A model generated the notes under the pieces. That model was not told the origin of the DNA. It did not search any database and saw nothing but the letters and a program-made list of their open reading frames with translations. From the IMG/VR virus record IMGVR_UViG_3300042991_000159, positions 1 through 64,000 of that record: DNA of 64,000 nt; one strand, 5' to 3'. A program made the position numbers and the translations under genes. Positions 3,542 through 38,653 of the stretch are shown piece after piece. Each line of letters opens with the position of its first letter. The first letter of the stretch is position 1. Source of the stretch: a virus.

Positions 3542-4153
3542 ATGAGTAAAAGAAAAGTAACACTCAAGCTTACGACACAGAAGGATTTGATCGAAACCGA
3601 ATCCTCAGCTCGTACATTTGGAGAACTTCAAAAAGAAATGACCAATGTTGAATGGTCAGGTATGAGAGTGGTCGTAAGATCAACCAAAAATACCTTGCAA
3701 GACGATAATGCTCTGCTTCCAGCAGAAGATTTTGTGTTGTTTCTGGTTCCTGAAAAGGTTAAGTCTGGTGTAGTTGAGAAATTGAAAAATATTTCGACTG
3801 CAACATACAACGATCTAAGAAGCCATATATCTTATCTGAATAAGATGAAAAAAGCTGGTCTTCCTTCGGATGGTGGAACTGAACAACTTCGTAAAGTTGT
3901 ACAAAGTTACTATGACACAAAGAATCCTGCAAAAGGTCCTGTAATTGCTTCCAAATCTACTTCGGTAGAAAAAAACAGTCGTATCGTAGCGATTGAAGAA
4001 GCTCGTATCAAGATTAATGAAGCAATAGACGTAATTATTGCCAATGCGGGAGAAGCAAAAACAGTTGAAGATACAACTGAATATCTTATCAAAGTGTCTC
4101 TTGAAGACCTTGATAAAGAGATTCTGGAACTCAAGAAGAGTTTAAGTCTTTAG
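3542..4153 (+). CDS. Ubiquitin-like (beta-grasp) protein, putative modifier of the cassette
   Basis: 203 residues. Residues 1-70 have the layout of a beta-grasp Ubl: strand KVTLKLTT, helix TFGELQKEM, strand MRVVVRST, then LQDDNALLPAEDFVLFLVPEK. This resembles the small Ubls of prokaryotic PRTRC-like and E2/JAB/E1 cassettes. After residue ~75 (KVKSGVVEKL) comes a mostly helical extension that ends LELKKSLSL, with no terminal Gly-Gly, so any conjugation would need processing or a different end. The JAMM protease gene is encoded downstream. A strong terminator follows immediately, suggesting more Ubl transcript than enzyme transcript. Fold and role are inferred from pattern and context. Confidence 0.6.
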   Translation: MSKRKVTLKLTTQKDLIETESSARTFGELQKEMTNVEWSGMRVVVRSTKNTLQDDNALLPAEDFVLFLVPEKVKSGVVEKLKNISTATYNDLRSHISYLNKMKKAGLPSDGGTEQLRKVVQSYYDTKNPAKGPVIASKSTSVEKNSRIVAIEEARIKINEAIDVIIANAGEAKTVEDTTEYLIKVSLEDLDKEILELKKSLSL

Positions 4154-4164
4154 ATTGATTATAC

Positions 4165-4208
4165 AGGTAACTGTAGTCATATATTAAAGACTACAGTTAC
4201 CTTTTTAT
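4165..4208 (+). terminator. Intrinsic terminator between the Ubl-like gene and its enzymes
   Basis: A perfect 14-bp stem, AGGTAACTGTAGTC (4165-4178) with GACTACAGTTACCT (4189-4202), with a 10-base loop, followed by a T run. It lies 11 bases after the Ubl-like stop. No promoter box is evident before the next gene at 4229, so that gene is likely expressed by read-through. Confidence 0.85.
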
Positions 4209-4228
4209 TAATTTAAAGTAGAAAAAAG

Positions 4229-5944
4229 ATGACAACAAATACAAATGAATTTATACAAGTCACTTCTGGTACGTTCATTCAAAGTGTTTTTGATGATATA
4301 GAAGATACACGAACACTTGCAAATGTTACATATACAATTACTAGCGACACAAACGATATTTCTTTACTTATCAGTCCTGAATCATTATTAAAATCTGCTA
4401 CAAAAAAAGTTGAATCCAAAGTTCAACCAAAATCTAATCTTAAAAAAGAAATTTCTAAAGAAGAGAGGATTCAAAATTGGAAAAGAGAAGGATATATAAT
4501 AAAGAAAAAAAGAACACATGTTAGTGAAGTAATTATTGGTCCAAATGATATTCTTATTGCTATTGATTCTTATAATAGACCAAAAATTTTTCATACTCAA
4601 GGTGGAAAAAAAGGTACTGTTGGTGAATTAATGACCAATAACATACCATCAAGTAAGTATAGTGATGATTACAAAGAGTTAACTACTACTTGCTTTTTCG
4701 ATAAAAATATGAATCCTTTAGAATTAAAAGTTCCTTTTCCGCTCAATCAAACGAAAATGTTTCCATTGTTAAATGTAAATCAAATTGATAGAGCTAATTT
4801 TTTAAACGGTATGGATGGTATTGGAAGTAATATCTGGATTATTGTTGACAAAAAGAAATTTCTTCGTTCTAAAGGAAAAGATTTTGTTATACGTCAAAAA
4901 CATAATATTAGTTACGATATAATAAAATCTGTAAAAAAGAAACTTATAAAGAATTTTGTTTTTCAAGAAGAACTTCTTAATAAACTTAAAGAAATAATTG
5001 GTGGAATTTATGATGAAGATAAATTTGAAATTATTTATTTTCAAACTTTTCACAATTCTAACAAATTTTATATTTTCAATGTTTTTAATGATTTAATTAT
5101 TAAAAATTCCATTGAAATAGAACATAAAATTCATACTTTAATTACGAAACTTAATGGTACTCATGATATACTTGATAATGATAAATCAGTTTTCAATTTT
5201 CGACCAAGATTAGAAGGAATAAGACTTGTTTATAATCCAGTAGATTCTTTTTATTCTTATACTCACTCACATATATCAAGAGGAAATATGGGACACATGG
5301 CTAATTTCTGTATGGGAGGTAACAATTTTCTTTCTCATATGATAGGTGATTCAGTTACAGATGTTGAGTTTGAGGGAATTATGATTTCTCTTTTTGATCA
5401 TATATCTTGGGAGTCTCTTGAAGGTGGTCCTTATTTTAAAATGGAGGATATTGGAAAAAGTTCTAGTCAAATATTTATTATTATGAATGAATTACGACTA
5501 AGACTATATGATAAGGAATCACTTAAAAATATTTTTGATTTTCTAAGTTCAATAGACTTATCTCCTTTAAAAAAAGCTTTTACTTTAACTAATCCTACAA
5601 AAGATGGATTAACATATCTTTTAGATAAGGATGTATTTTATGAAGAATTTTGCAAATTTTGGAAGAAAGTTGTTAGTGTTGCAAAAGCAAAAATCGAGAA
5701 TATTGATTCTATGTATATCAATGGTGAGTATATACAACCCGCTATAGTTGAAATTGAGAATTTTAAAAATGATTTTCGTTCTTCTTCCTCTTATCCTTTT
5801 ATTAATCCTGATACGATTGATATAATTATGAAATACTTTCATTTTCAAATAAATAAAGAATTAAAAAATGATAAACAAAAAAGAAAAGATTACATATCCG
5901 ATATTCGAAATGCCGAGCAAAGGAAAACTGATTCTTCCGAGTGA
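4229..5944 (+). CDS. Candidate E2-like protein of the ubiquitin-like cassette (PRTRC-B-like)
   Basis: 571 residues, AT-rich and low in recognisable motifs. Around residues 335-370 it has RLVYNPVDSFYSYTHSHISRG then FCMGGNNF. The T-H-S-H-I element (345-349) followed 12 residues later by Cys361 in a C-M-G-G setting recalls the HPH/HPN...CLG signature of bacterial E2-like (RWD/UBC) domains in cassettes with JAB and E1 genes. Cys361 would be the thioester cysteine. The N-terminal ~100 residues are lysine-rich and probably flexible. Position supports the call: between a Ubl-like gene and JAB/ThiF genes, with a 77-base overlap into the JAB gene. Without structure prediction this remains a hypothesis; it could be an unrelated scaffold. 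Confidence 0.4.
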   Translation: MTTNTNEFIQVTSGTFIQSVFDDIEDTRTLANVTYTITSDTNDISLLISPESLLKSATKKVESKVQPKSNLKKEISKEERIQNWKREGYIIKKKRTHVSEVIIGPNDILIAIDSYNRPKIFHTQGGKKGTVGELMTNNIPSSKYSDDYKELTTTCFFDKNMNPLELKVPFPLNQTKMFPLLNVNQIDRANFLNGMDGIGSNIWIIVDKKKFLRSKGKDFVIRQKHNISYDIIKSVKKKLIKNFVFQEELLNKLKEIIGGIYDEDKFEIIYFQTFHNSNKFYIFNVFNDLIIKNSIEIEHKIHTLITKLNGTHDILDNDKSVFNFRPRLEGIRLVYNPVDSFYSYTHSHISRGNMGHMANFCMGGNNFLSHMIGDSVTDVEFEGIMISLFDHISWESLEGGPYFKMEDIGKSSSQIFIIMNELRLRLYDKESLKNIFDFLSSIDLSPLKKAFTLTNPTKDGLTYLLDKDVFYEEFCKFWKKVVSVAKAKIENIDSMYINGEYIQPAIVEIENFKNDFRSSSSYPFINPDTIDIIMKYFHFQINKELKNDKQKRKDYISDIRNAEQRKTDSSE

Positions 5945-7040
5945 TATTATAACTCAAATTAATTTTCTTCATGGAAAAATAGGTAGTATTGAATGGTCAG
6001 GAATGTTATTTTATGATGTAGTTAAAGGTAATCCTTCTAAACCGGAAGATTTTGTGTTAAAAGTAAAACACATTTATTTAATGGATATTGGAACAGGTGC
6101 TTATACTGAATATGAAACCGATGGTGACTTCGTTGAAATCTATGATGAAATAGAAGAAGCTATGAACTGGAAAGTTGGTCATATTCATAGTCATCATACA
6201 ATGCAAACTTTCTTTAGTGGTACAGATATGGATGAACTACATGATAATGTTGATAAACACAATTATTATTTATCTTTAATTGTAAATCATGCTGGTAAAT
6301 ATCAAGCAAAGATTGCTTTTCTTTCTGATATTCATAGTTCTGCAAAAATGAATTTTATAAGCGATGAGGGATCAGTAAAACATTTTAAAACTCAGAACAT
6401 TGAGAAAAAAATGGCTGTAATAGATATGGATATCTATTACGAATATGCAGACCCTATTTTCTATAATCGTTATAATGCTATATTAAAGAAAAAAGAAGTC
6501 GCTAAGAAAGAAAAAGAGGTTAAGGAAGTTCAAGGTAATAAGTGGAATAGATGGGATAGAAAATATAGTCAAATGGGTGAACTTGATTTTCGAGCACTTC
6601 CTAAAGGAAAAAAAATAATTGAAGATGTTGATCCAAAAGATATGACAAACCTTCAAATTGAAAAACTTGCTCGTTGTATTTTTGCTGTTGATCCTGAATT
6701 AAAAGAAACAAGAACTAATTATCAAATCCTTCATCTTCTCGCAAATGTAAAAGAGGAAGAACTTGAATTCTATTATGATCATTTAGCTAACAACATAGAA
6801 TCAATTATTGAAAATTTCTTTGATGTAGAACTTGAATCAAATGAAATGGCAATTGTTCTTGATGAAGTAAAAGGTTCAATGATTCGTTTCCAAAATTCTC
6901 CTTATATTAAAAATGTAGTCAATGGTATTTCTGAGACCATTGATCAATTTTTTATGGATTTTACTAAGAGAGTCGAGGAAACCGATATGGAAGAACAGTT
7001 AGAAAAAGAATTAGAAAAAGAATTATTAGAAATGGAATGA
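5868..7040 (+). CDS. JAB/MPN (JAMM) metalloprotease, putative deubiquitinase-like enzyme
   Basis: 390 residues. The N-terminal domain carries a complete JAMM motif: Glu42 in IEWSGM, then H107-x-H109-x7-S117-x2-D120 in the segment HIHSHHTMQTFFSGTDMD. These residues bind zinc and water in JAB isopeptidases that release ubiquitin-like proteins. Residues ~200-390 are a charged helical extension of unknown role, ending in an EKELEKELLE coiled tail. The stop overlaps the ATG of the E1-like gene (ATGATG), indicating coupled translation. The start at 5868 lies 77 bases inside the previous gene; Met15 at 5910 is an alternative that keeps the whole domain. Confidence 0.85.
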   Translation: MINKKEKITYPIFEMPSKGKLILPSDIITQINFLHGKIGSIEWSGMLFYDVVKGNPSKPEDFVLKVKHIYLMDIGTGAYTEYETDGDFVEIYDEIEEAMNWKVGHIHSHHTMQTFFSGTDMDELHDNVDKHNYYLSLIVNHAGKYQAKIAFLSDIHSSAKMNFISDEGSVKHFKTQNIEKKMAVIDMDIYYEYADPIFYNRYNAILKKKEVAKKEKEVKEVQGNKWNRWDRKYSQMGELDFRALPKGKKIIEDVDPKDMTNLQIEKLARCIFAVDPELKETRTNYQILHLLANVKEEELEFYYDHLANNIESIIENFFDVELESNEMAIVLDEVKGSMIRFQNSPYIKNVVNGISETIDQFFMDFTKRVEETDMEEQLEKELEKELLEME

Positions 7041-7735
7041 TGGATAAAATCGAAGTTAAAAAATCAAGATTTCGAGATGCATCATGGTTTGAAAAGATAG
7101 ACAAATTTAACGTTCCCGTTATCATTGGGGGAGCTGGTGGAATTGGTAGCTGGTTGACGTTATTTCTCGCAAGAATGTTGCCGTCAACCGGCTATATCTT
7201 TCTTTATGACTTTGATGAAGTCGAAGAAGTTAACATGGCTGGACAACTTTTTGGTAAAGAGCATCTTCGTATGCCTAAAGTACAAGCTGTATATGATGTT
7301 GTAAGCAGATTCAGTGATTATGAGAGAATGTCTCTTCAGAATATGAAATATACTTCTGAGAGTCTTCGTAGTCCTGTTATGTTTTCAGCATTCGACAATA
7401 TGCAAGCACGAAAAGATATGTTCCAGAATTGGAAAAAAGAAGAAAAGTTACATGATCTAGGTAAAATTTTTATTGACGGTCGTTTACTTGCAGAACAACT
7501 TCAAGTATTCTTTGTAACTCCCGAAACGGAAGAGAGATATGAAAAAGAATATCTCTTTGATGATTCCGAAGTTCAGGCAGAAAACTGTAGTTATAAACAA
7601 ACTAGTCATTTTGCAGCAATCATTGCTGCTAAAATGATTCAAGGTTTTACTAACTGGTTAGTTAAAGACCAAGCTGAACTTCCTTTTTATTACGAAGAAA
7701 TAGGTGGTTTATTTTTAACTAAAGCAGAAAATTAA
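7037..7735 (+). CDS. ThiF/E1-like adenylyltransferase of the ubiquitin-like cassette
   Basis: 232 residues. It has a Rossmann nucleotide-binding loop, VIIGGAGGIGSWLTLFLAR (residues ~28-46), then FLYDFDEVEEVNMAGQLFG..HLRMPKVQAVYDVV, the D..D.V...N..RQ-type region of ThiF/MoeB/E1 enzymes (Q present, Arg replaced by Gly). Cys184 in ENCSYKQTSH is the candidate catalytic cysteine; paired CxxC zinc ligands are absent. Such enzymes adenylate the C-terminus of a Ubl and pass it to a cysteine. It overlaps the JAB gene at its start, and its TAA shares bases with the next ATG (TAATG). The size is that of a minimal E1 without extra domains. Confidence 0.85.
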   Translation: MMDKIEVKKSRFRDASWFEKIDKFNVPVIIGGAGGIGSWLTLFLARMLPSTGYIFLYDFDEVEEVNMAGQLFGKEHLRMPKVQAVYDVVSRFSDYERMSLQNMKYTSESLRSPVMFSAFDNMQARKDMFQNWKKEEKLHDLGKIFIDGRLLAEQLQVFFVTPETEERYEKEYLFDDSEVQAENCSYKQTSHFAAIIAAKMIQGFTNWLVKDQAELPFYYEEIGGLFLTKAEN

Positions 7736-8472
7736 TGGAAATTAATATATTTTATAACGGTATAAAATTTGATTATGGTGATACTGCAATAAGATTTAGA
7801 ACCAATAGTAAATCTGAATATGTTCCGCTGATTATGATACTTCATAATAAAAGAAAAATTCCTCTTTTTACTGAAAACTATTGTGGCTTTTTTAAAAATT
7901 TAGAAAATCCGTTTACTTTTAAATATACTCAACGTGTTTATAAATTTAGCAGATCAATGATAAGAGCCAGATACAATAACGAAGATTATAATAGCAGATA
8001 TATTAGTATCTCAATGTTAAGTATATTTGGTATAAAAGATAAACTTGAAAGTGGGATTTCAAATCTTAAACAAGGGGATAGTCCAAATGTTAATATATAT
8101 AACAATATTGATGTTTTTGCCTTAGCAGTAATTAAGAAATCAAATATAAGGAAAATTAAAAATGAAAAGGAAAAATTTATTATTGATTCTCAATATATAA
8201 AGATTTTAGTTTCAAAAGAGAAATTTAAATCTCCTAAATATATGAATATCAATTATAATGCAACTTCAGGAAGACATCTTTTACGTGAATTTAATTTATA
8301 TACAAATTCTAACGATATAGAACAAATTGTCGTATCAGATGAGGAATTGAAGAAGTTTTATTATAATCCATTTGCTTTAAAAACTAATTCTATAATGGAA
8401 GCGATGGAAGAAGATCAAAACATTAAAGAAGTAGTATTTCATAAGTTACAACACAATTTAGTATATGATTGA
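7735..8472 (+). CDS. Hypothetical protein linked to the Ubl cassette
   Basis: 245 residues with no recognised domain. It starts in the TAATG overlap with the E1-like gene and overlaps the nuclease gene by 8 bases, so it is the last tightly coupled member of the cassette transcript. It is rich in lysine, asparagine and aromatic residues (e.g. FTFKYTQRVYKFSRSMIRARYNN in two parts near residues 60-85) and has no signal peptide or membrane segment. It could be a partner or target of the conjugation enzymes, but this rests on position only. Confidence 0.55.
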   Translation: MEINIFYNGIKFDYGDTAIRFRTNSKSEYVPLIMILHNKRKIPLFTENYCGFFKNLENPFTFKYTQRVYKFSRSMIRARYNNEDYNSRYISISMLSIFGIKDKLESGISNLKQGDSPNVNIYNNIDVFALAVIKKSNIRKIKNEKEKFIIDSQYIKILVSKEKFKSPKYMNINYNATSGRHLLREFNLYTNSNDIEQIVVSDEELKKFYYNPFALKTNSIMEAMEEDQNIKEVVFHKLQHNLVYD

Positions 8473-26493: not shown

Positions 26494-29400
26494 TTAACCT
26501 TTACATCGTTTAATTCTTTCTTCTACTTCTCTATCAGAAATTATAGCTCTTAAATTACTCGGAGCAATTCCTGCATCCCTATTACTTAAATAAATATTCT
26601 TTAACGCACCTTGATTAATTCTATCTTCATATACACCCATTCCTTCAATCTCCTGTCTTTTTGGTTGTACTGAATGTTGATACTCATGTTCCATAACAAA
26701 ATTCTTCCATTCTTCAAAGGTAGTAAAAGTATCCTCTTTTAGTGCCATTGCATATGTTCCATCTTTTTGTTTTCTAGGAGTAGTCCATGCTTTTTGATTA
26801 TATTTTTCAGAAAGCAAGTTAGTATTTATTTTAATGATATTTTTTTCTCTATCGTATTGAGCACCTCCCGGTTCTCCTGTAGCAGTCTGAAATTCACCTT
26901 CTTCAACTATCATTCCTCTATAAGTTTGTTTATTATCAGTAATGAGATCAAGAGTTTCGTATAAAGTATGTTCAAGAACACTACCTTCTACCACATCAAA
27001 ACCTATTACTTTTAATAAGTTAACTAATTTTTCTTTAATTGCATCCCAAAACGTTCTTTCTTTAGAGAAAGGAATATTATTAAGAAGTTTTTGAAACTCA
27101 GGATCGGTAAGAGCTTGAGATATAAATTCTTCAGTATTAGTAAATCCATAATAGGAACTAATTTCTGCTTCTGATACTTCACCACCTTTAGTTTTACTTT
27201 CAAAATTTTTAATAAATGTATCATATGCTTCTTTATGTTCAGGCGATTGAGTAATAACGTTTTTAGCTTTCTCTCTTAAATTATCAATAGACTCAATAAT
27301 TTTTCTTTCACGATCTGTTAAAGTTACCCCGGTAATTCTCTTAAATGCTTCAAATCTATCTTTTTCACCACTCTTTTCTAATGTATAATATCTTACTTTA
27401 TAACCAGTTAAAGCATGGAGTAATTCGTGTATAAATACTTTATTTACTTTATAAGCAGTATTAAATAGTTCTGAACTAAGAGTATCTTTATATAGAGTAA
27501 TATCATTTTCTCCATAATCTATTTGCCCAGCAGATAATCCAGTAGGAGAATTTAAAACACTAAGAGTAAACGATTGAGGTAAAACATCAACACTGTCAAA
27601 TATCTCTTGAGCAAGAGTGCTTTGATATTTATCATCTCCATAAGTAATAATTTCGTTTAATACACTTTTTATTTTCTCCTTACCATCTAAGAAAGTTAAT
27701 GATTTTTGCTTACCGTTCTTAAGATCATTCAGCAGATTATCTCTACCCTTGCGTGAAGCTATTCTACCACCTTCGGGTATAGGTTCACCCGGAGCTGGAT
27801 TCGTAGGATTCTTAGTTTTAGAAGACTTTTTATTTCTTTCAATAAGAGATACTTGATCGTAAGTATTTCTATTATACTCACTTGCACCAAATATTCCAAG
27901 TCTATCAATTTCTTTATAGCTCTGCGATCTTGTATCAAATTTAAATAATTTAATTCCTGTCTTACCTCTAAAAGTAACATATGCGGGAGAACGCATTTGA
28001 AAAGAAACAAGTTTACCAATAACATCTATAACTTCTTGTTTAAGAGTAAATCCATCTTTTACTTTAATAATGTCTTCTTCGGTAACACTCGAAAGTCTCT
28101 CAGGATGATGCTGAAAATATTGTTGCACAAATGTTGGTATATTATAATACTCATCTACGTCATCATTCATTACAGAAATTTCTAAATCTCTTGCAAGAAA
28201 TCTCTGATCAGCCAAATTTTTCATAAACGGTATATTAGCAAGATAGGTTGCAGGAATATATTTCACAAATTGAATAGCTTCCTGAATACCACCTGTAATA
28301 TAAGAATACAAAATCAGGTCTTGTGCAAGTTCTTTTAATGAATAACTATTTCCATTAAATGTAGTAATAATAGGACTATTACCATCACTATCTTCAGCCT
28401 GAAGCATTTCAATAAATGATCCATACATAGCAGTCTCGTCAGGGTCTTCGGCTTTAGAAGCGTTAAATGTTACGAGAGAAGGATCACCGTTTTTTTGAGG
28501 TTCCCCCTCTAACTGGGAAAGGAAAGGATGTGCTTTGCCAAACTCAGTTTTTTTGATTTTTCTAAGTACGGTTGCAAGGGATTCTTTAGTATTATTTCCA
28601 TTTTCATCCCATTTATCATATAGAAGTCTCTCACGTTCCTGAGTGATCGTAGAATCATGAAGACCAAGACTTTCATCAGCATAGAAGAACGATTTCATTT
28701 CTTTCCAAACTGCTAGTCTTCTATTAGCTTTATCGGCTACTTGAACCTCGTTCGATCCCGCACCAATTTCTTCTATCTTATTAAACATTGCTTCTATTCC
28801 TGACTGTTTATAAGGAAATAATACTGACCAAAGATCATTATTAGTGAATAGTCCATGTACAATAGCCTGACCGTTGATATTAGAAGGTTTCACATAATAT
28901 ACTTTCCCACCATGTCTTCTAAATATATATCCTTCAGCTTCAAGTTTTTTTACTTGATCGGCTTTAGGATTTTTTACAATATCTCCTATTAATAATTCAG
29001 CATTAAGTACGGGAGAAGCAAGAAGATCGAAAACTTGATCTTCTTTAAGTTGAGATTCCATAACAGATTTACCAAGTCCCGCACTGTCAGGATTAATAGT
29101 TGACTGAAGAGTTTGAATAACTTTTCCTAAGTCATTAATATAGACAAACTTATGCAAGAATAATCTCTGAGCCATAGCATAGTTAGGTTCAGCAGCACCA
29201 TTCTTAATATAAGCTCTCATTTGAGCAGGGGTAGCTTTCTCGTGTGCAAGTTCAGAATTAAATTCTTCATCGTCTCTAACCTGATACTTATCCATAGCAA
29301 AAACATTCGTTTTTGCCACTTCCTCTTTATTAGGAATATAACCTGTAAGAGAACTACCGAGTCTATCAAGTTCCTTTACATAATCTACAATTATATCTTG

Positions 29401-32400
29401 AGAAATAAACAAAGGTACTTCTTCTCCAAATCCTAATTGGTTCAGAATTTTGATAACTTTGAATGTATGGTTATTTATGTTTAGTTTATCCAGAATCTGT
29501 TCTTTTTCATTATCTACAGCCGCAGATTGATAACCAGCAATAATATCTGACTTATATGTTTTACCATCTAATGCAAGTTCTTCTGAAAGATTACCTTTAG
29601 ATGTTAACTTTCCAAAAGTAATTTCAAGAGGAATTAGATTCCCGTCTTCATCACGATCACGTATAACCAAATCTTTACCTTGAGCAATAGTATTGAACAT
29701 ACTGTCAAGAGAGAATACACCTACACCGGCTTTACCAGCAGTAGCGTTCTTGAACTTGTCCCTTTGATACTTGTCAGAGAGACCAGTAAACATTTTACGA
29801 GAACCAGCTTGTTGTAATGAAGCAAGTTTAAATTGCAAGTATTCAAATGTTTTAGGAGCCTTTTCTTTTAATTTAGCTAAACCTGTACCGAATCCGTCTT
29901 CTGGTATGACTATAGTTCTACCTTCAGGAATAGAATCAAATGCTTCATTTATATATAACGTGTTTTCTTCATACTCGTCGTCCGTAAAGAACGAATCCTT
30001 ATCCATAGAAGGTTTCTTCTTTGTCGGTATGCCTAACGCATTAGGTTCTCCACGCATTTCTTTTGCTTGACCGTCTAATCCTGTTTTTTCTAAGTTGTCT
30101 CCAAAAAGATATAGTTTGTCTGGATTATTCTTTAAATCTTGTCTCGAAATAAACTTTTGAGTTATGACACGAATTTGTCCTGTGTCAGCACGAGCTTCGT
30201 GTAAATCAACCACTTCCTCTGCAAGTTCTTTTAACTTCCAGAAACCTAGAGGATTAGCTATTTGAGCTTGTACTTCTACAGCAGGATTGGAATGAATAGC
30301 AATATGAGTATCAATTATCTTATTTTGTAGAGCAGCAGAACGATCTTCACCCTCTTCTCTTCTTTGTACTTTGATATTACCTTTCGAATCAGTATAAGTA
30401 TTGTACATATACGTGTACAATTTGTCAACATCAAAATCGGAACCCATTTGTACAACATAATCTTTTGTAGCAATCAGTAAATCACCAGATGATTCAGGAA
30501 GAAAACCGACAATTTCAATCCAAGACTGAGAATTCGGACCCTGATTAGGTATTCTCATACCAAATAGTTGTAACACTTCCGGTAACACCTTAGAGGAATC
30601 GAGAACTAAAGTTCCATTAACTTTAGTTACATAGTCTTCCATTTTTAGAAGATTGCCTCTCTTGTCCTTGAATTTCCAAGGTACAAGTGCTTGAGCAGGT
30701 AGTCTTATACCATTTTCTTCACGTGCAGGAAGTAATTTCCCTGTCCATTTACTTGTATAAATGATACCCGCCTGAGTTGTTTTCCTTTTCTCTTCTTTCT
30801 CAGAAAGAGTTTGAAAACCTTCCTCTGATCCCAGAACATAAGATTTTCCCGGCATTTTAAGTCTAATAACTCTATTTGTAACGATAGAATTAAGCAGAGC
30901 TTCATATTTATTAGAAGATGGTGAGAATGCAAGAAAATCAAGCTCATCATCAAGCTGAATCATTTCCTGATCAGAGATAGGATAGTTTCTGCTTTTAGCT
31001 TCTTCTAAAAGTATTCTTCTCAGTTCATTTCTGTTATATGATTCAGTTTTTGGATTCCATTGAAGTTCATCAAGTAGTTTTTGTTTTTCAATCTCATGTA
31101 ATTGATTGAATACTTTATGATATTCTTCCTGAAAAGTTGCACCATCAATCTCTTTACCGTCGTTTATCCAAGGTACTTTGAATCCGCCTACATTTAACAT
31201 ATTCACAAACAGGTTCTTAGAAGCCTGAGTTACTTTAGTGATTTCATTAACCGATTTTTCAGGTATTTTTTGTTGAATCCTGAATCCTTTTCTTTCAAGT
31301 TGAGTCTTTTTACCCGTAAAAGAAATTTCATCAGCCTTTATAATTTTGCCATCTTCACCAAAAATATTCAATGGATCAATTATATTACCTACTTTAACAG
31401 CAGTACTATATGCAACTCTATCAATTCCTTGATTTTCCATAGCAATACGAAGATTCTCAAGATCAGTTCCTCTTGTAAGTTGAGGTAATAAAGGAAAAGA
31501 AGAAGATTTAATATAGATTCTTTTCTCTACATCGTCTGCTTCATCTATTTTATTATCAACATACACAGGCTTCATAGGTTGCATTACTTTACCTAAAAGT
31601 TTCTTACTAACAATATCCTTGTTATTAGATAGAGCAAAGTATGCTTCATTATACTCTTCATCAGAAAGTTCACCTGATTGTTTCATAACATAGAGATGTT
31701 CCTTCCATGTAGTATATTCTTGAGCGTCAGCACTATCAAATGAATAGTAACGTTCACTGTTTAATCCTTTAATAGTTTTCTTTAATTCGCTTGGATTTTT
31801 AGTTGCTTTTACTTTATCATATGCTTCTTGTCCATCTAACAGTTTAGTTATCTGGAACGCTGCTTCAGATTTAGACTTTGGATCAGCTATGAATCCCTGT
31901 ACGTATCTGTTTTCATTAGCACCTGCAAGTTCATAACCGGGAGCAATATCACCAGCTAAACGTTTCCCAATATTAATATAGGTAGCTTTTGCATCAGCTA
32001 CGAAATCATAATCTTTATCGGTTCTACTTTTATTCTCATTAACTTTAGCTTGTTTGTAATATAAAGCAGGATCACCAGTAAATGTCATAGCTATTTCAGC
32101 ATTAGCTATAAGATATTGAAATACCATATCTGTAGCAGCTCCACGTATTCTATTCTTCTGATCTACACCATTCAGAGGATTATGTTTTTTAGCAAGAGAA
32201 CCACTCATATATTCACTATTCATATAATCATTGTTTCCCTCTCCAATACCTTCCATTTTCCATTCCGCTTGTTTCTCATCTACAAGACTTAGAACATATT
32301 CCTTAATCTTATTTTTAATAGCATCTTTAACTTTACCATCTAATCTTATATCCGGATTAAGTTCCCCACCAATAAATACATCAGGAATAGTATTTATTTC

Positions 32401-35400
32401 AGGAAGAAATAGAAATTGTCCTGCTCCTTTAGAGTATCCTTCTACATTAGGTGTATTTCCGTTTTTTCTTTTTAATTCAAATGATTTAATTCTTCTGATT
32501 TCTGGTTCCACAAGAACATCATATAACGTTTCAATAGATTCATCAGTAAGATTCCCCTCTCTATCCATAGTAAGATCACGTGCTAATACACGTAATCCCA
32601 TAATAGTAGTCTTATCAGATGTAGTAGGATAGAGAATTTGAATAACTCTGTTACCTTCGTTTTTATTGTCTGTATAAGAAGCTTGTAACATACCGATTTT
32701 GGCTAATTCTATCTCACCCTGAGATAGTTTACCCATTTCAGCATTATCACGACTCTTAGCTTTCATTTTCTTTAGAGGTTCTAACGAGAATATCCATCTG
32801 TCAAAATTAGCTGTAAACGCATTATCCCCTCCATTTTCTTTGAGTAAATCAATCCATTGAGATGCACCATTAAAAGAAAGTTCAGATAATTGATCAATAA
32901 GAGGATTAGTTCCGTTCTTAAAGTCTTTCATCTCTCTCACACGATTAATCATGTATTTATTTTGCCCATAAGAATATACAGTCTTGTTACCAGTACGATG
33001 TGAATTACTATAACTATAAGCAGCGTACATAGCTTCATGTTTAGCAAGATTTTTTACTACTCCTTCAGTAATAAGTCTATTACCGCTTATTAAAGAAGCA
33101 TCTTGTCTTGTATGAATGTTGCTTGCTAGTACATGAAATAATCCACCTTTCATCATTTGATTCTTCAGGCTTACTTTCTTTCCATAACGTTTAACTTCAC
33201 CTGCAATCAAATCTCTAAATGTTTCATTAGTTAACGTGATACCAAGTTCTTGTAACCACTGTCTCATTTCGTTTGCATGAACAATAGGATTAGGTGATTC
33301 AGTCCATTTTTGGAAGGTTTCCCAGAGACGATCACGATCAGTTTCTGCTAGAACATAGTCAGTAGCATCATTAGGATTCCTTACAGCAGTATTAACAATA
33401 AGGTTTACATACCAATCACGTAATACCACATCTGCAATAGCACTAGCGTTAGATTGTTGTTCAACAAGCTCCCATTCTCCTTTATAATTTTGACCCCACA
33501 TCACGAATCTCATATTCACATCATGATTAGTCATACCTACAACGAACTGGTTTTTAATTTGCTGTGGTGCTCCTTCCAGTTTACTTACAAATTCTTTCAT
33601 AAACGGAAATGTTTTCATCGTTTCGGAATCATTAGCTATCCTACGTAATTCAAACATTATCTCATCAAAATCTGGTTTTTTGTTAGCAGTAAGTCTTTGT
33701 ACAATATTATATAGTTCTTGGAAAGTCATGGTTTCTGACAATCCTAAATAATTCTTAGATGGAACAACTTTTCCTGTATGATCTACTTTGAACTTTCTAA
33801 TACCTGACATGAACCACTTAATTTCAGAAGCAAGACCTCTTACCGGATTTAGTGTAATAACATCCCCCCAACCGTCATTTTCATTAGTAGCTTCTTTTTC
33901 TTCTGTAGTCTTATCTTCTTCCTCATCTCCCGGTTTAATTGTAATATCATCTATTCTAGTAAGTTGATCGTCAGTAAGAGCAACAAGTTTAGACCAGTTA
34001 TTAAGTATTAGATTGAACTCATTAAGAGCAGTCTGGTGTCTTGCAATTAATTCTTCATCACCAATAACTTTAGCTTTAGCTAAATTTCTTTCAGCTTTAT
34101 CCCTATTGGATTCAAACATCTTCTTAATAGTACCATATATTTTACCCGTCTGAACTTTCTTTTGTTTATATAAAGTTTCAACAAGTTTGGCTCTCATATA
34201 ATCCGTAACTTGTCTTTGTTTTGCCGCACCCATATCAGCAATAATAACACCCTTAAGTTCACCATCTTCAACAGTAACGTCAGCATCTTTTTTCATTCTT
34301 GCAAGAGCATCTTTATCTAAAGGAGCAGCTATATTGGCGGTAAAGTCAGTATCTTGTGGGTTCATGTCCTCATCATAGTCTTCAAATCCTGTAGGATTCT
34401 CAGGCTTAATATCTTGAGGCTTCTCTCTTGCCTTTTTTTTCTCAGCAGTTTGTTTCTTTTTTTCTTCATAAGTAATCATCTCCCCCTCTGCATAATACAT
34501 ACCTGCAATAATTGGTTCAAGTTCATCTTTTCGCTCCGGAGTAGTATTTGGGTCATTCCATTCTTTTAGTAATCTCTTAAACTTTTCAATCTCCGTTTCC
34601 TCGGTCTCTTCTTCTATCGCACTAAAATCCATTTCAATAACGGGTTGACTTGTATATACATAATTAGGATTCTTTTCTGTTCCTATATTGAAAGAAATAA
34701 AAGGAATCTTACTAGTATTCTTAGTATGCTCATTATAAGACATTGAAGTCACATTACCTTCAGTATCAATGTAAATAGCTTTATCCTGAGTATTTTCCAA
34801 ATTGGTTTGGAGATACATATTACTTAATTTTTCACGTATCTTTTCGAGACGAACAGTTTGTTCATTTGGTGAATGTTTGGAAATCCAATCTTTATTAATA
34901 AACGTTCTGCCTATTCCTTGTCCACGAGAAATTTGGAAGTTCACATCATTTTCTCTACGTTTCATAGAGGTAAAAACCGTTCTACTTTGTTTATTACCTG
35001 TATTTTCTGCTAAAAAAATTTTTAAGTCTGAACTTTCACCAATATCGTAGTTATTAATAAACATTTGTAAATAATCTGTAATACCTTGAGGAGTAGTAAT
35101 GTTAATAGTATTATTACTTTCTTTTAAAATACCATCAACGATCTTATTAGATTTCTCATCATTTTTTTCATAATAGAAAATTTCTAATGCGGTCATCATA
35201 CCTTCCAGAATCTGTTCGTGTTCTGAAACTTTGTCCATAAGCAAAGGAATAGCTATCTCCTGATCTATTCCAATAGGAATCATAATATAAGTAACACCTT
35301 CTTGTGGTTCTGTTTTATTTAAAAGTTTACCTCCTTTATAATCTGTATTTCTATCAGTTACATAGTTTCCTTTACGCCCAACTACGATAGGTAAGGATTT

Positions 35401-38400
35401 CTCCGGCATTGCTTGGCTGGTTTTAATATTCCCGTCTACTGATCTTTGTAGATATCCTGTAGTCTTCTTGCTAATCTTAGTATCAAATGTTTTATTCTTA
35501 AGCATATATCTACGGATAGTTCTATTACGATCTTTATCTTGAGCAACATTACCCGATATGTTTTTTTCGTTAATCCATATTGTTTCGTGTAGATAACCAA
35601 TTTTTTTACCATTAGAATAAACAGCAATAGGAGTTTGTTCAAGTATCTTTTCTTTTATCTGCTCAGTAGTAAGTTTAGGATCAGCATTCCATTTAGCTAT
35701 TTTAGCACCCCAAGTAGTTATTTCACCCGTATCTTCATCATAAACTCTATTATTTTCATTATCATCTATTTCAAGTCTAACTTTATCTCCTACTTTAAAT
35801 TGATGTTGATCAAGAAGTTCTGGTACAAGCATATCAGCATTAATAGCATCTTCTATGTCTTCTTTAGAAGCAAGACCTTTTTTAAACTTGTTGATATATT
35901 TTCTTGCAAGATATGCAAGTTTAGTAGCCCCCGATCTAACTCTAAGATAATCTGTCTTAATGTTATTTTCACTTGGGTCTTCATCTATATTCTTTCCGTT
36001 AATTACTACATCAATCTGATCTTGAGCATTTTTAATTTGCTCATTAGTATTGTCTGTATATTGAGTTTTAGTACTCACGTTACCATGAGAATTTTGTCCG
36101 TCTATTTCTCTTCGTTCATCAACAGTGGGTTTAATAAACTTATTAAAATCTCCTATAATCTGGTAGTTGGGATATATTATTTTATATGCTTCTTCGAGTG
36201 CGGGAAAAGCATTTTCGGTAGCAACAACTCCTACTCTATCAATCATTTCGTCAACTACATCCTCGATACTTACACCTAGACTATTTTTAGCTGTCTTTGT
36301 AAGATTTATTAAGGTGTTGGTTAAAGATACCTTATCTGAACCTTCTAGTGTAAGATTAGTAGTGGCATCATTAAATTCTGAATCAAGTTGTAATTTTCTT
36401 TTCTCTTGTTCTATTTGATCTGCTGGAATATCAGTTACATCCTTATCTTCAGGAATTTGAGCATCGGCTGCTGCTTCAACATCAAACATATCTGGTGTTT
36501 CATCCTCTACTATACCTGCTTCTTCAGCTTGTTGTTCAGCTTGTTGTTCAATTTTATCTTTTTTTTCAGCCTGACGTTCTTTATCAACTTTATCTTTCTT
36601 TTCCGCTTTTTTTCTTTTGGTTTCAACTTCTTCTTCTTTTCTTTCTCTCTTAACTTTATCTTTAAGGTCTTTTATAATTTTCTCTTGTTGCTCTTTTTTA
36701 TCTTTAACTTTCTTTCTTTCCTTTATCTGAGTTTCAGGAGAAATCATAAATTTATAAGCTACATCAAGTTCGTTTAGATTTTCAGTCAAAGTTTCTAATG
36801 TCTTATTATATTCAGTTAATCTATCTTCCATTTGAGGATCACGATTCTCTTGAAATTCAAGGTCTGCTTCAATTTCATCTCTAACTCGTCTTACTTCATT
36901 AATATCCTGTTGTAGAGACTGTCTATTCTCACGATTAAAGAATATATCTGCTTGATTTTCATAACGACCATACCTATTATAATCGCTTTCCATTCTCTGA
37001 AGTTCTCTAAGTTGAATTTCAGCTTGTTCTTTATAATTATTATCCCAACCATTAGCTTTAGCTTCTTCAGGTGTAGTGTTAGCTACATCTTGAAGATCAC
37101 GTTCAAGTTTTTCAGTAGTTCCTTTTTGGAAGTTTTCTTTAGCTATCATACGAAATACGGACTTCTTAACTATTTCAGCAAAGTTATCTTTTCCTGTTGC
37201 ATATGATTCTGCTTTAAGAGCTTCAGCTTGAGCTAACCAAGAAAGTTTCTGATTTACAAATTGTTTATTAGCTTCAATTTGTTCTTGTTGTTCTTGATAT
37301 CTTGCCGCATATTGTTTTTTAGAACTAGGTGCTAAATTACCACTAACAGCTTCAGTAAAAACACGTTGTGGACCACCACCAAATACACCCATCAGACCTT
37401 CAAGAAGAGCTTGGTCTGATGTAGCGAATTGAATTACTCTCTGAGTTAAATCTTCAGGAATATCAGATACGTCTAATCCTGCTTCTTTTCTGGATTGATA
37501 CTGACCTTCCATCTGAATTATATTTTGACCAATTTCTTCAGCACCTTCCTTAGCACCTTGAATTAATAGATTATCAGTAGAAAGTGTGCCAAATCTTTTT
37601 GCCCAAGTAGTTAAATTCTTTTCTTTTAATAGATTACGAGTAACCCCTTTGGCTTTAAATATACCATGAAGTCCTATTGCATCTGTAAGAGCAAATACTT
37701 TATTACGATTGATAAACTGGTTTGCTTTTTCACCAGCAATCGTTTCAAATTCTTTTAACTTATCTGTTTCTAACTGAAGATTAGTAATCTGTTCAGCTTT
37801 TTGTATAAGCTCTTCCTTGCTCATCTCAGGATTAAGAGCTTGTTGTTCATTATAATTTTGTTCAAAAAGACCTTGTTGCATTTGTCCCATAGAGTTTTCA
37901 AATTGCTCTATAGCCATCATTTTACCTTCAGCAAAATTTGTAATATAACCAGAAACTCCTGAATTGATTGCTTGTGCTATTTTAGGATTTTGACCTATCA
38001 TACTAAGATATTTGTCAAGTCTAGCCGATCTTTGAACAAATTTATTAACTCTTGTTAGTTCTGCACCAAGTTTTATACCTTTCTGAACAGCACCTATACC
38101 TTTAGATACGGCCATACCGGGAATAGCAAAACCTACAGCACTGTCAAGTATTCCTTTGAGAGAAGAGAAATAGAAGCCGGGATCAGACCAATCAAATACT
38201 TGATCCGTCTCTCTGTGAATAGGCATAGCTTGTTCCAGACCCTTCTTAGCGTCTTCCATTACTTGAGAAAAAGCATTAGTATCTACTTCTTCAAGTCCTT
38301 GTAAACGTTTGATATTATTGTCAAAGTCAAGAAGATAACCAACATCCTCTAAAGCAGTAAGCGCACCTGAAGCGATACCACCAACAATAGCATTGAAAGC

Positions 38401-38652
38401 TTTGTGTGAAGTAGGTTGATGTAATGCTCTCTCACGTTCAAGATTATTAAGGTCTTTAAGAGTAAGATTTTCGTCATAACGTGAACGTTTTCCTACAATG
38501 CCACCTACCTGTACTACAGGCTCATGTTTCGATACAGAAGTTCCCGGTAATAATGTATAATCAAGATAATCTGAACCGTTCGATGAATTAGGTTTTTGAG
38601 TTAATCCTGAAGCAGGATCAATCATTTCATAGTTTAAATATTCTTCATTCAT
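26494..38652 (-). CDS. Giant virion RNA polymerase polyprotein-like protein
   Basis: About 4052 residues from the ATG at 38652, one base after the previous stop; the frame extends to a TTG at 38712 inside that gene, less likely. Residues 2739-2743 are DFDVD in VVQMGSDFDVDKLYTYMY, the metal-binding DxDxD motif of crAss-like virion RNA polymerases related to two-barrel polymerases. About 100 residues later comes LYLFGDNLEKTG..GQAKEMRGEPNALGIPTKK, a conserved 'GDN..G.GGQA..MRGE.NA.GIPTK' module also found alone in phages. Near the C-terminus are two zincin HExxH motifs: HELLH (3742-3746) and HEYQH (3989-3993). A long Lys/Glu coiled region lies near residues 620-740. It is probably packaged, ejected and used for early transcription. 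Zincin motifs could serve self-cleavage. Confidence 0.85.
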   Translation of the reverse strand: MNEEYLNYEMIDPASGLTQKPNSSNGSDYLDYTLLPGTSVSKHEPVVQVGGIVGKRSRYDENLTLKDLNNLERERALHQPTSHKAFNAIVGGIASGALTALEDVGYLLDFDNNIKRLQGLEEVDTNAFSQVMEDAKKGLEQAMPIHRETDQVFDWSDPGFYFSSLKGILDSAVGFAIPGMAVSKGIGAVQKGIKLGAELTRVNKFVQRSARLDKYLSMIGQNPKIAQAINSGVSGYITNFAEGKMMAIEQFENSMGQMQQGLFEQNYNEQQALNPEMSKEELIQKAEQITNLQLETDKLKEFETIAGEKANQFINRNKVFALTDAIGLHGIFKAKGVTRNLLKEKNLTTWAKRFGTLSTDNLLIQGAKEGAEEIGQNIIQMEGQYQSRKEAGLDVSDIPEDLTQRVIQFATSDQALLEGLMGVFGGGPQRVFTEAVSGNLAPSSKKQYAARYQEQQEQIEANKQFVNQKLSWLAQAEALKAESYATGKDNFAEIVKKSVFRMIAKENFQKGTTEKLERDLQDVANTTPEEAKANGWDNNYKEQAEIQLRELQRMESDYNRYGRYENQADIFFNRENRQSLQQDINEVRRVRDEIEADLEFQENRDPQMEDRLTEYNKTLETLTENLNELDVAYKFMISPETQIKERKKVKDKKEQQEKIIKDLKDKVKRERKEEEVETKRKKAEKKDKVDKERQAEKKDKIEQQAEQQAEEAGIVEDETPDMFDVEAAADAQIPEDKDVTDIPADQIEQEKRKLQLDSEFNDATTNLTLEGSDKVSLTNTLINLTKTAKNSLGVSIEDVVDEMIDRVGVVATENAFPALEEAYKIIYPNYQIIGDFNKFIKPTVDERREIDGQNSHGNVSTKTQYTDNTNEQIKNAQDQIDVVINGKNIDEDPSENNIKTDYLRVRSGATKLAYLARKYINKFKKGLASKEDIEDAINADMLVPELLDQHQFKVGDKVRLEIDDNENNRVYDEDTGEITTWGAKIAKWNADPKLTTEQIKEKILEQTPIAVYSNGKKIGYLHETIWINEKNISGNVAQDKDRNRTIRRYMLKNKTFDTKISKKTTGYLQRSVDGNIKTSQAMPEKSLPIVVGRKGNYVTDRNTDYKGGKLLNKTEPQEGVTYIMIPIGIDQEIAIPLLMDKVSEHEQILEGMMTALEIFYYEKNDEKSNKIVDGILKESNNTINITTPQGITDYLQMFINNYDIGESSDLKIFLAENTGNKQSRTVFTSMKRRENDVNFQISRGQGIGRTFINKDWISKHSPNEQTVRLEKIREKLSNMYLQTNLENTQDKAIYIDTEGNVTSMSYNEHTKNTSKIPFISFNIGTEKNPNYVYTSQPVIEMDFSAIEEETEETEIEKFKRLLKEWNDPNTTPERKDELEPIIAGMYYAEGEMITYEEKKKQTAEKKKAREKPQDIKPENPTGFEDYDEDMNPQDTDFTANIAAPLDKDALARMKKDADVTVEDGELKGVIIADMGAAKQRQVTDYMRAKLVETLYKQKKVQTGKIYGTIKKMFESNRDKAERNLAKAKVIGDEELIARHQTALNEFNLILNNWSKLVALTDDQLTRIDDITIKPGDEEEDKTTEEKEATNENDGWGDVITLNPVRGLASEIKWFMSGIRKFKVDHTGKVVPSKNYLGLSETMTFQELYNIVQRLTANKKPDFDEIMFELRRIANDSETMKTFPFMKEFVSKLEGAPQQIKNQFVVGMTNHDVNMRFVMWGQNYKGEWELVEQQSNASAIADVVLRDWYVNLIVNTAVRNPNDATDYVLAETDRDRLWETFQKWTESPNPIVHANEMRQWLQELGITLTNETFRDLIAGEVKRYGKKVSLKNQMMKGGLFHVLASNIHTRQDASLISGNRLITEGVVKNLAKHEAMYAAYSYSNSHRTGNKTVYSYGQNKYMINRVREMKDFKNGTNPLIDQLSELSFNGASQWIDLLKENGGDNAFTANFDRWIFSLEPLKKMKAKSRDNAEMGKLSQGEIELAKIGMLQASYTDNKNEGNRVIQILYPTTSDKTTIMGLRVLARDLTMDREGNLTDESIETLYDVLVEPEIRRIKSFELKRKNGNTPNVEGYSKGAGQFLFLPEINTIPDVFIGGELNPDIRLDGKVKDAIKNKIKEYVLSLVDEKQAEWKMEGIGEGNNDYMNSEYMSGSLAKKHNPLNGVDQKNRIRGAATDMVFQYLIANAEIAMTFTGDPALYYKQAKVNENKSRTDKDYDFVADAKATYINIGKRLAGDIAPGYELAGANENRYVQGFIADPKSKSEAAFQITKLLDGQEAYDKVKATKNPSELKKTIKGLNSERYYSFDSADAQEYTTWKEHLYVMKQSGELSDEEYNEAYFALSNNKDIVSKKLLGKVMQPMKPVYVDNKIDEADDVEKRIYIKSSSFPLLPQLTRGTDLENLRIAMENQGIDRVAYSTAVKVGNIIDPLNIFGEDGKIIKADEISFTGKKTQLERKGFRIQQKIPEKSVNEITKVTQASKNLFVNMLNVGGFKVPWINDGKEIDGATFQEEYHKVFNQLHEIEKQKLLDELQWNPKTESYNRNELRRILLEEAKSRNYPISDQEMIQLDDELDFLAFSPSSNKYEALLNSIVTNRVIRLKMPGKSYVLGSEEGFQTLSEKEEKRKTTQAGIIYTSKWTGKLLPAREENGIRLPAQALVPWKFKDKRGNLLKMEDYVTKVNGTLVLDSSKVLPEVLQLFGMRIPNQGPNSQSWIEIVGFLPESSGDLLIATKDYVVQMGSDFDVDKLYTYMYNTYTDSKGNIKVQRREEGEDRSAALQNKIIDTHIAIHSNPAVEVQAQIANPLGFWKLKELAEEVVDLHEARADTGQIRVITQKFISRQDLKNNPDKLYLFGDNLEKTGLDGQAKEMRGEPNALGIPTKKKPSMDKDSFFTDDEYEENTLYINEAFDSIPEGRTIVIPEDGFGTGLAKLKEKAPKTFEYLQFKLASLQQAGSRKMFTGLSDKYQRDKFKNATAGKAGVGVFSLDSMFNTIAQGKDLVIRDRDEDGNLIPLEITFGKLTSKGNLSEELALDGKTYKSDIIAGYQSAAVDNEKEQILDKLNINNHTFKVIKILNQLGFGEEVPLFISQDIIVDYVKELDRLGSSLTGYIPNKEEVAKTNVFAMDKYQVRDDEEFNSELAHEKATPAQMRAYIKNGAAEPNYAMAQRLFLHKFVYINDLGKVIQTLQSTINPDSAGLGKSVMESQLKEDQVFDLLASPVLNAELLIGDIVKNPKADQVKKLEAEGYIFRRHGGKVYYVKPSNINGQAIVHGLFTNNDLWSVLFPYKQSGIEAMFNKIEEIGAGSNEVQVADKANRRLAVWKEMKSFFYADESLGLHDSTITQERERLLYDKWDENGNNTKESLATVLRKIKKTEFGKAHPFLSQLEGEPQKNGDPSLVTFNASKAEDPDETAMYGSFIEMLQAEDSDGNSPIITTFNGNSYSLKELAQDLILYSYITGGIQEAIQFVKYIPATYLANIPFMKNLADQRFLARDLEISVMNDDVDEYYNIPTFVQQYFQHHPERLSSVTEEDIIKVKDGFTLKQEVIDVIGKLVSFQMRSPAYVTFRGKTGIKLFKFDTRSQSYKEIDRLGIFGASEYNRNTYDQVSLIERNKKSSKTKNPTNPAPGEPIPEGGRIASRKGRDNLLNDLKNGKQKSLTFLDGKEKIKSVLNEIITYGDDKYQSTLAQEIFDSVDVLPQSFTLSVLNSPTGLSAGQIDYGENDITLYKDTLSSELFNTAYKVNKVFIHELLHALTGYKVRYYTLEKSGEKDRFEAFKRITGVTLTDRERKIIESIDNLREKAKNVITQSPEHKEAYDTFIKNFESKTKGGEVSEAEISSYYGFTNTEEFISQALTDPEFQKLLNNIPFSKERTFWDAIKEKLVNLLKVIGFDVVEGSVLEHTLYETLDLITDNKQTYRGMIVEEGEFQTATGEPGGAQYDREKNIIKINTNLLSEKYNQKAWTTPRKQKDGTYAMALKEDTFTTFEEWKNFVMEHEYQHSVQPKRQEIEGMGVYEDRINQGALKNIYLSNRDAGIAPSNLRAIISDREVEERIKRCKG

Positions 38653-38653
38653 A

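Follow-up and report, generated by a model that had tools for sequence, protein, structure and literature searches.

Within the 64,000 nucleotides analysed here (the window: positions 1–64,000 of the IMG/VR record IMGVR_UViG_3300042991_000159, which is 99,795 bases long in all), four adjacent genes at 3542–7735 encode a ubiquitin-like protein (Ubl), an E2-like protein, a JAMM/JAB metalloprotease and an E1-like enzyme (table 1). The phage is crAss-like: its virion protein (43173–47399) matches 82 records, nearly all of them crAss-like phages, and a syntenic block is common to its relatives; the Sak4-like and primase genes of the window match PHROGs. A preliminary description, made from the DNA letters, had reported these four open reading frames on the plus strand, and they lie exactly there. 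The motifs it had quoted, namely THSHI...C361MGG in the E2-like protein, E42 with H107xH109-x7-S117xxD120 in the metalloprotease and GGAGGIG with C184 in the E1-like protein, are present far beyond chance expectation. The cassette is also, as had been stated, part of the phage replication block, lying between a RusA-like gene (identified by its position and by relatives) and a RecB/exonuclease VIII-like gene, with every cassette gene on the plus strand. The genes are tightly packed. The JAB reading frame begins 77 nt before the E2-like gene ends and runs 4 nt into the E1 gene; its overlap with the E2-like gene recurs in 68 of 72 relatives.

Table 1. Features of the cassette and its probable fifth gene, in window coordinates.
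Feature	Position	Strand	Remarks
pro-Ubl	3542–4153	+	203 aa; beta-grasp aa 1–71, flexible tail with invariant Gly76, helical C-terminal extension aa 89–200
Gly76 codon (K-S-G motif), predicted mature C-terminus and conjugation residue	3767–3769	+	
E2-like protein	4229–5944	+	571 aa; probable UBC-type core ~aa 229–392
HSH motif H346-S-H348 of the E2-like protein	5264–5272	+	
Cys361 codon, predicted E2 active-site cysteine	5309–5311	+	
JAMM/JAB metalloprotease with C-terminal extension	5868–7040	+	390 aa
H107-S-H109-x7-S117-x2-D120 zinc/catalytic motif of JAMM	6186–6227	+	E42 codon 5991–5993
E1-like (ThiF-fold) Ubl-activating enzyme	7037–7735	+	232 aa
Cys184 codon, predicted E1 thioester cysteine	7586–7588	+	
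gp75-like gene, probable fifth module gene	7735–8472	+	1-nt overlap with the E1 stop; same position in relatives

How secure are the assignments of the individual proteins? Residue conservation was counted over 82–87 distinct homologues, the E1 set comprising 66 clusters at 70% identity. The E1-like protein matches Pfam ThiF with 55.1 bits against a cut-off of 28.1. Its profile matches in the PDB are led by UBA5, with UBA6, the SUMO E1, MoeB and Cap2 lower, and hhalign with PRTRC-type ThiF gives 98.9% (E 1e-17). Residues D58, D60, N66, Q70, K81 and D120 are invariant, as is C184 (86/86), the only cysteine of the window protein; with the S-Y-K that follows, it resembles the C-T-x-K/R motif found in eukaryotic E1s. 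The CxxC zinc motif of ThiF and MoeB occurs in 0 of 87 homologues. The metalloprotease matches Pfam Prok-JAB at E 0.0016, below the family cut-off, while CSN5 and archaeal JAMM1 are its profile matches among structures and hhalign with plasmid PRTRC-type JAB gives 88%. Its active-site residues hardly vary: E42 (83/83), H107 (83/85), H109 (81/82), S117 (83/83) and D120 (83/83). Group I introns favour strongly conserved sites, and such introns interrupt JAMM-motif codons in at least three loci (L064, 5136–5348; L073, 4555–4814; L082, 4471–4717) and the E2 gene in a fourth (L074, 3225–3456); JAB genes are interrupted at or near the same site, with no Rfam intron match, in L087 (4509–5687) and in Fpv1 (L002, 6064–7057). 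We conclude that the family profiles and invariant active sites (E, HxH and SxxD in the protease) confirm, at the level of sequence, the earlier E1 and JAMM calls.

The Ubl had been inferred from the letters, and here the evidence is structural. The AlphaFold model has pLDDT (predicted local distance difference test) blocks of 91–97 over residues 1–70, arranged strand–strand–helix–strand–strand; a flexible stretch containing K74-S75-G76 follows, and then helices. Foldseek matched this model to ubiquitin, ISG15, SUMO and Ubl domains, which confirms the product as a beta-grasp protein. Sequence profiles contributed nothing to the call: hhalign of the phage Ubl against PRTRC_C was not significant, and a PDB profile search with the Ubl alignment returned no meaningful match. 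Gly76, placed just after the final strand, is invariant in 81 of 81 sequences and is the sole invariant column of the 64-row Ubl alignment.

The E2-like protein carries the signature YTHSHI...C361MGG. Conservation is again concentrated at the putative active site (C361 in 85/85, H348 and S347 each in 84/84, H346 in 78/84), and G363, E395, S396 and G399 are invariant or nearly so. In the model a helix (229–258) precedes four strands (266–273, 277–292, 298–314 and 320–335), which lead to H346-S-H348, then C361, then a second helix (378–392). Bacterial E2s were recognized by Iyer et al. from a four-strand meander, flanking helices and a conserved His and Cys (PMC1779556), and the topology and residues of the phage protein fit that description. 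In a profile comparison with PRTRC protein B it scored 24.8, against 21.1 for the best of 200 shuffled decoys and at most 18.6 for control families, and the alignment sets C361-x-G onto the Cys-x-Gly of E2 family D. Motif, topology and context agree, the profile support is weak and the fold search recovered no E2 (see below); on balance we think it quite likely that this protein is an E2.

How widely is the cassette kept? With either the E1 or the JAB protein as query, tblastn returned 74 records, which belong to Steigviridae, to the Fpv phages of Flavobacterium and to a handful of phages that have no classification. The crAss001 genes run primase, gp79 (Ubl), gp78 (E2-like), gp77 (‘metalloprotease’), gp76 (‘thiamine biosynthesis’), gp75 and UDG, and the cassette order is retained in ten more records. 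Searches for related loci with single window proteins gave nothing, but alignment queries recovered 80 IMG/VR loci and two contigs (L093 and L094) binned in Clostridium and Spirochaetia metagenome-assembled genomes, which are probably phage contigs. Of the IMG/VR loci, 74 extend 4.7 kb or more upstream of E1, and the order Ubl–E2–JAB–E1 holds in 73 of them. The proteins themselves have diverged, the window Ubl and E2 often sharing less than 25% identity with their relatives, while the active-site positions scarcely vary; the databases label these genes ‘thiamine biosynthesis’ or ‘hypothetical’. The cassette is a conserved core module of a whole clade of crAss-like phages, those of the gut and of the environment included. 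The preliminary description had missed this, as it had the exchange of the cassette for other modules in sister phages, described below.

If Gly76 is the residue that is conjugated, what of the residues beyond it? Their number ranges from 1 to 217, and because at least one follows the glycine in every full-length sequence, the Ubl would need processing. Five Ubls (L046, L056, L063, L069 and L075, the last two near-identical) end one residue past the glycine, each with intact DNA and a stop codon; that of L024 ends five residues past it. These short Ubls represent five lineages. In some of these short-Ubl loci a small separate open reading frame lies directly behind the Ubl gene. In cr106_1 (L009) the Ubl ends in KSG-KF and is followed by an HNH gene and then by the tail as a reading frame of its own, and in cr116_1 (L111) the tail domain is a stand-alone 82-residue reading frame that starts where the fused proteins continue past the glycine; the Ubl domain, E2, JAB and E1 were all sought in the cr116_1 slot and not found. 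Read from sequence, the short Ubls and split tails are natural fusion or fission points at the predicted cut. These natural termini near Gly76 suggest that the Ubl is made as a precursor and that the JAMM protein, the obvious candidate for that step, matures it. As a separate observation, a ribosomal L7/L12 C-terminal domain (Pfam E 3e-10) was recognized in one member of the Ubl alignment. By our reading it belongs to the tail of the Ubl from Kolpuevirus (L059, 3331–4269; similarly L008, 4341–5267), where the tails are longest, and it recalls ubiquitin–ribosomal protein fusions.

We propose the following pathway. The Ubl would be made as a precursor, and the JAMM protein would cut after Gly76, so that the beta-grasp domain is separated from the tail. 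Next, the E1-like protein would adenylate Gly76 with ATP and hold it as a thioester on Cys184, from which the Ubl would pass to Cys361 of the E2-like protein; this in turn would attach it to its targets through an isopeptide bond, and the JAMM enzyme could also remove it from them. The cassette probably acts in the early-to-middle phase of infection, since it lies inside the replication gene block. We put the probability that this clade of crAss-like phages carries a complete, working cassette for Ubl conjugation and deconjugation at about 0.78. After trypsin digestion, lysines of the targets would retain a Ser-Gly remnant of the K-S-G tail (about +144.05 Da). Standard searches for diGly would overlook it; with this mass the proteomes of crAss001-infected Bacteroides could be searched for tagging.

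To which known system is the cassette closest? Bil systems contain a Ubl, an E2, a JAMM protease and an E1. These anti-phage systems (BilABCD) thus share all four kinds of component with the phage set, which is instead phage-encoded and placed in a replication block. Of the PADLOC Bil models, BilA, BilB and BilC gave no match and BilD a trace (11.9 bits, E 0.016). Plasmid PRTRC-type cassettes (L099–L108; Bacillota and cyanobacteria) also resemble the phage set; they were taken from plasmids because searches with Prok-E2_D and BilB in the genomes of one bacterial phylum yielded few members. They too have separate genes in the order Ubl, E2, JAB, E1 with no E1–E2 fusion, and a single terminal glycine in the Ubl; they often adjoin dnaN, Rad52, primase or exonuclease genes, and their E1 and JAB profiles align well with those of the phages. 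Apparently they are operon type 6d of Iyer et al. 2006 (PMC1779556). The phage set differs in having HxH before the cysteine of the E2-like protein, where PRTRC_B sequences read, for example, YPYFN, and a long C-terminal extension on most of its Ubls. It falls below the PRTRC cut-offs (24.9 against 144.75 bits for PRTRC_ThiF; 13.9 against 101.8 for PRTRC_A), and no ParB-family protein or PRTRC protein E or F was matched among the ten flanking genes or the cassette genes. The preliminary description had named PRTRC and Bil cassettes as related; the phage set resembles a cassette of either type in its working, but the searches do not support its membership of either.

Three further systems share part of the design. 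Type II CBASS has E1-like activation and a JAMM protease in Cap2 and Cap3, but Cap2 is an E1–E2 fusion that conjugates a CD-NTase, whereas the phage E1 and E2 are separate, no CD-NTase was recognized in the cassette, and E1–E2 matches were fragmentary, at most 18.5 bits. The TAPI Ubl of lambda and T1 has a conserved terminal glycine, a C-terminal extension and a JAB-NlpC partner, TAPK, predicted to cut at that glycine (PMC1779556). Like the present Ubl and JAMM protein these are phage-encoded, but they come with no E1 or E2 and belong to a tail module, not a replication module. The amidoligase/ATP-grasp cassettes of phi14:2 and cr108_1 occupy the same slot in the same subfamily and are predicted to form amide bonds; their enzymes are unrelated, and Ubl, E1, E2 and JAB were not found there. 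A literature search returned nothing on Ubl, ThiF or JAB proteins of crAss-like phages; it did not cover preprints and subscription journals, so that an earlier description is possible.

What might such a system do for the phage? The slot between primase and UDG offers a clue. We inspected three Steigviridae genomes that lack the E1 and are missing from its tblastn list. In phi14:2 (L109, 20971–28370) and cr108_1 (L110, 663–9636) the slot holds an ATP-grasp protein, a COOH-NH2 ligase, a glutamine amidotransferase and an amidoligase; in cr116_1 (L111, 4540–9004) it contains an rIIA gene split by a group I intron, rIIB and the relic of the Ubl tail domain. Profile matches to E1, E2 and JAB were not found in 50 kb of phi14:2 or in 18.6 kb each of cr108_1 and cr116_1. 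The T4 rII genes protect against a prophage exclusion system, and rIIA/rIIB and amidoligases in this position suggest a swappable host-interaction module. Across the three genomes, the alternative contents favour a role of that kind. For this reason we consider it most likely that the cassette serves to take over the host or to protect the phage from the defences of host or prophage, with about an even chance of being correct if the cassette works as described. A broader proposal, to which we give slightly less than even odds, is that the clade, cultured human-gut phages included, runs its own Ubl tagging to disarm the host, and that the primase–UDG slot is a swap site where covalent-modification and anti-exclusion modules (Ubl, amidoligase, rIIA/rIIB) replace one another.

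Alternatively, the cassette might regulate replication and have nothing to do with defence, the Ubl being attached to replication or recombination proteins of the phage itself or to host proteins bound to DNA. The situation of the cassette between primase/RusA and exonuclease/UDG speaks for this, as do the dnaN, Rad52 and primase neighbours of the plasmid cassettes; the small helical domain in the Ubl tail could, we infer, bind nucleic acid. But sister phages in this subfamily manage replication with rIIA/rIIB or amidoligases in place of the cassette, so the replication machinery itself can do without it, and we judge this role somewhat unlikely.

Several observations weigh against a complete working pathway. 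A glycine (G69, 86/86) replaces the Arg of the canonical NxxRQ motif, which makes the E1 adenylation site a variant one; some plasmid PRTRC-type E1s have Asn there. At one locus (L088) E2, JAB and E1 are present and the Ubl was not detected, and the argument from tails encoded as separate proteins is based on few phages. The hhalign probability of the E2-like protein against PRTRC protein B is just 8%, Foldseek of its whole model against the PDB recovered no E2, and a Pfam search of the protein gave no E2 match. A PDB profile search with its alignment likewise gave no meaningful match, and Foldseek against viral models returned only uncharacterized phage proteins, crAss-like where named. The preliminary description had made its reading depend on beta-grasp and E2/RWD folds in the first two products; the first is there, whereas for the second the topology fits but the fold search is silent. 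Could the protein be a metal-binding or other enzyme (H-x-H...C...E), with conjugation proceeding without an E2 or directly from the E1? The invariant H348, C361 and E395 could indeed be metal ligands. Against this stand the succession of helix, four-strand meander, His/Cys and helix known from bacterial E2s (PMC1779556), the constant place of the gene between those for Ubl and JAB, which PRTRC-type cassettes share, and the co-linear alignment of the Cys-x-Gly, better than 200 of 200 decoys. We consider a function other than E2 unlikely.

Counter-defence by mimicry is more doubtful still. Here the phage E1 and JAMM would act on a host Ubl defence of Bil or CBASS type, for example by stripping the host Ubl. 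The two enzymes do resemble those of Bil and CBASS in kind, and Ubl-like conjugation in bacterial defence is documented (PMC10097602), but the phage has, and keeps conserved, a Ubl of its own whose terminal glycine is invariant, together with all other components. The ThiF fold and the GenBank label ‘thiamine biosynthesis protein’ might imply a sulphur-carrier or cofactor system, in which the beta-grasp and ThiF-like proteins produce a thiocarboxylate that serves thiamine, molybdopterin or nucleotide thiolation. This is very improbable, and we reject a thiamine or molybdenum-cofactor role, given ThiF and MoeB equivalog scores far under their cut-offs (53.3 against 159 and 22.2 against 376.55), a single-cysteine E1 devoid of the zinc motif, close association in 73 of 74 loci with genes for a JAMM protease and for an E2-like protein whose Cys is invariant, and no thiamine or molybdenum-cofactor gene recognized beside the cassette.

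The bacterial Ubl systems known to date are mostly anti-phage defences, or plasmid-borne. Here a complete Ubl set is kept in the replication region of an abundant and partly cultured phage group, under the mistaken label of thiamine biosynthesis. If the conjugation cassette works, phages use ubiquitin-like tagging offensively or for self-regulation.

The boundary of the cassette should probably include the gp75-like gene that follows E1. Relatives of gp75 stand directly after E1 in 45 of 73 loci by profile; the window copy, fast-evolving and weakly similar to its relatives, is too diverged to score, and a PDB profile search with the gp75 alignment gave no meaningful match. Its product is a candidate adaptor or target. 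Elsewhere in the window, the structural half contains an open reading frame of 4072 residues on the minus strand (26494–38712), at a position where crAss-like phages would be expected to carry their giant RNA polymerase protein.

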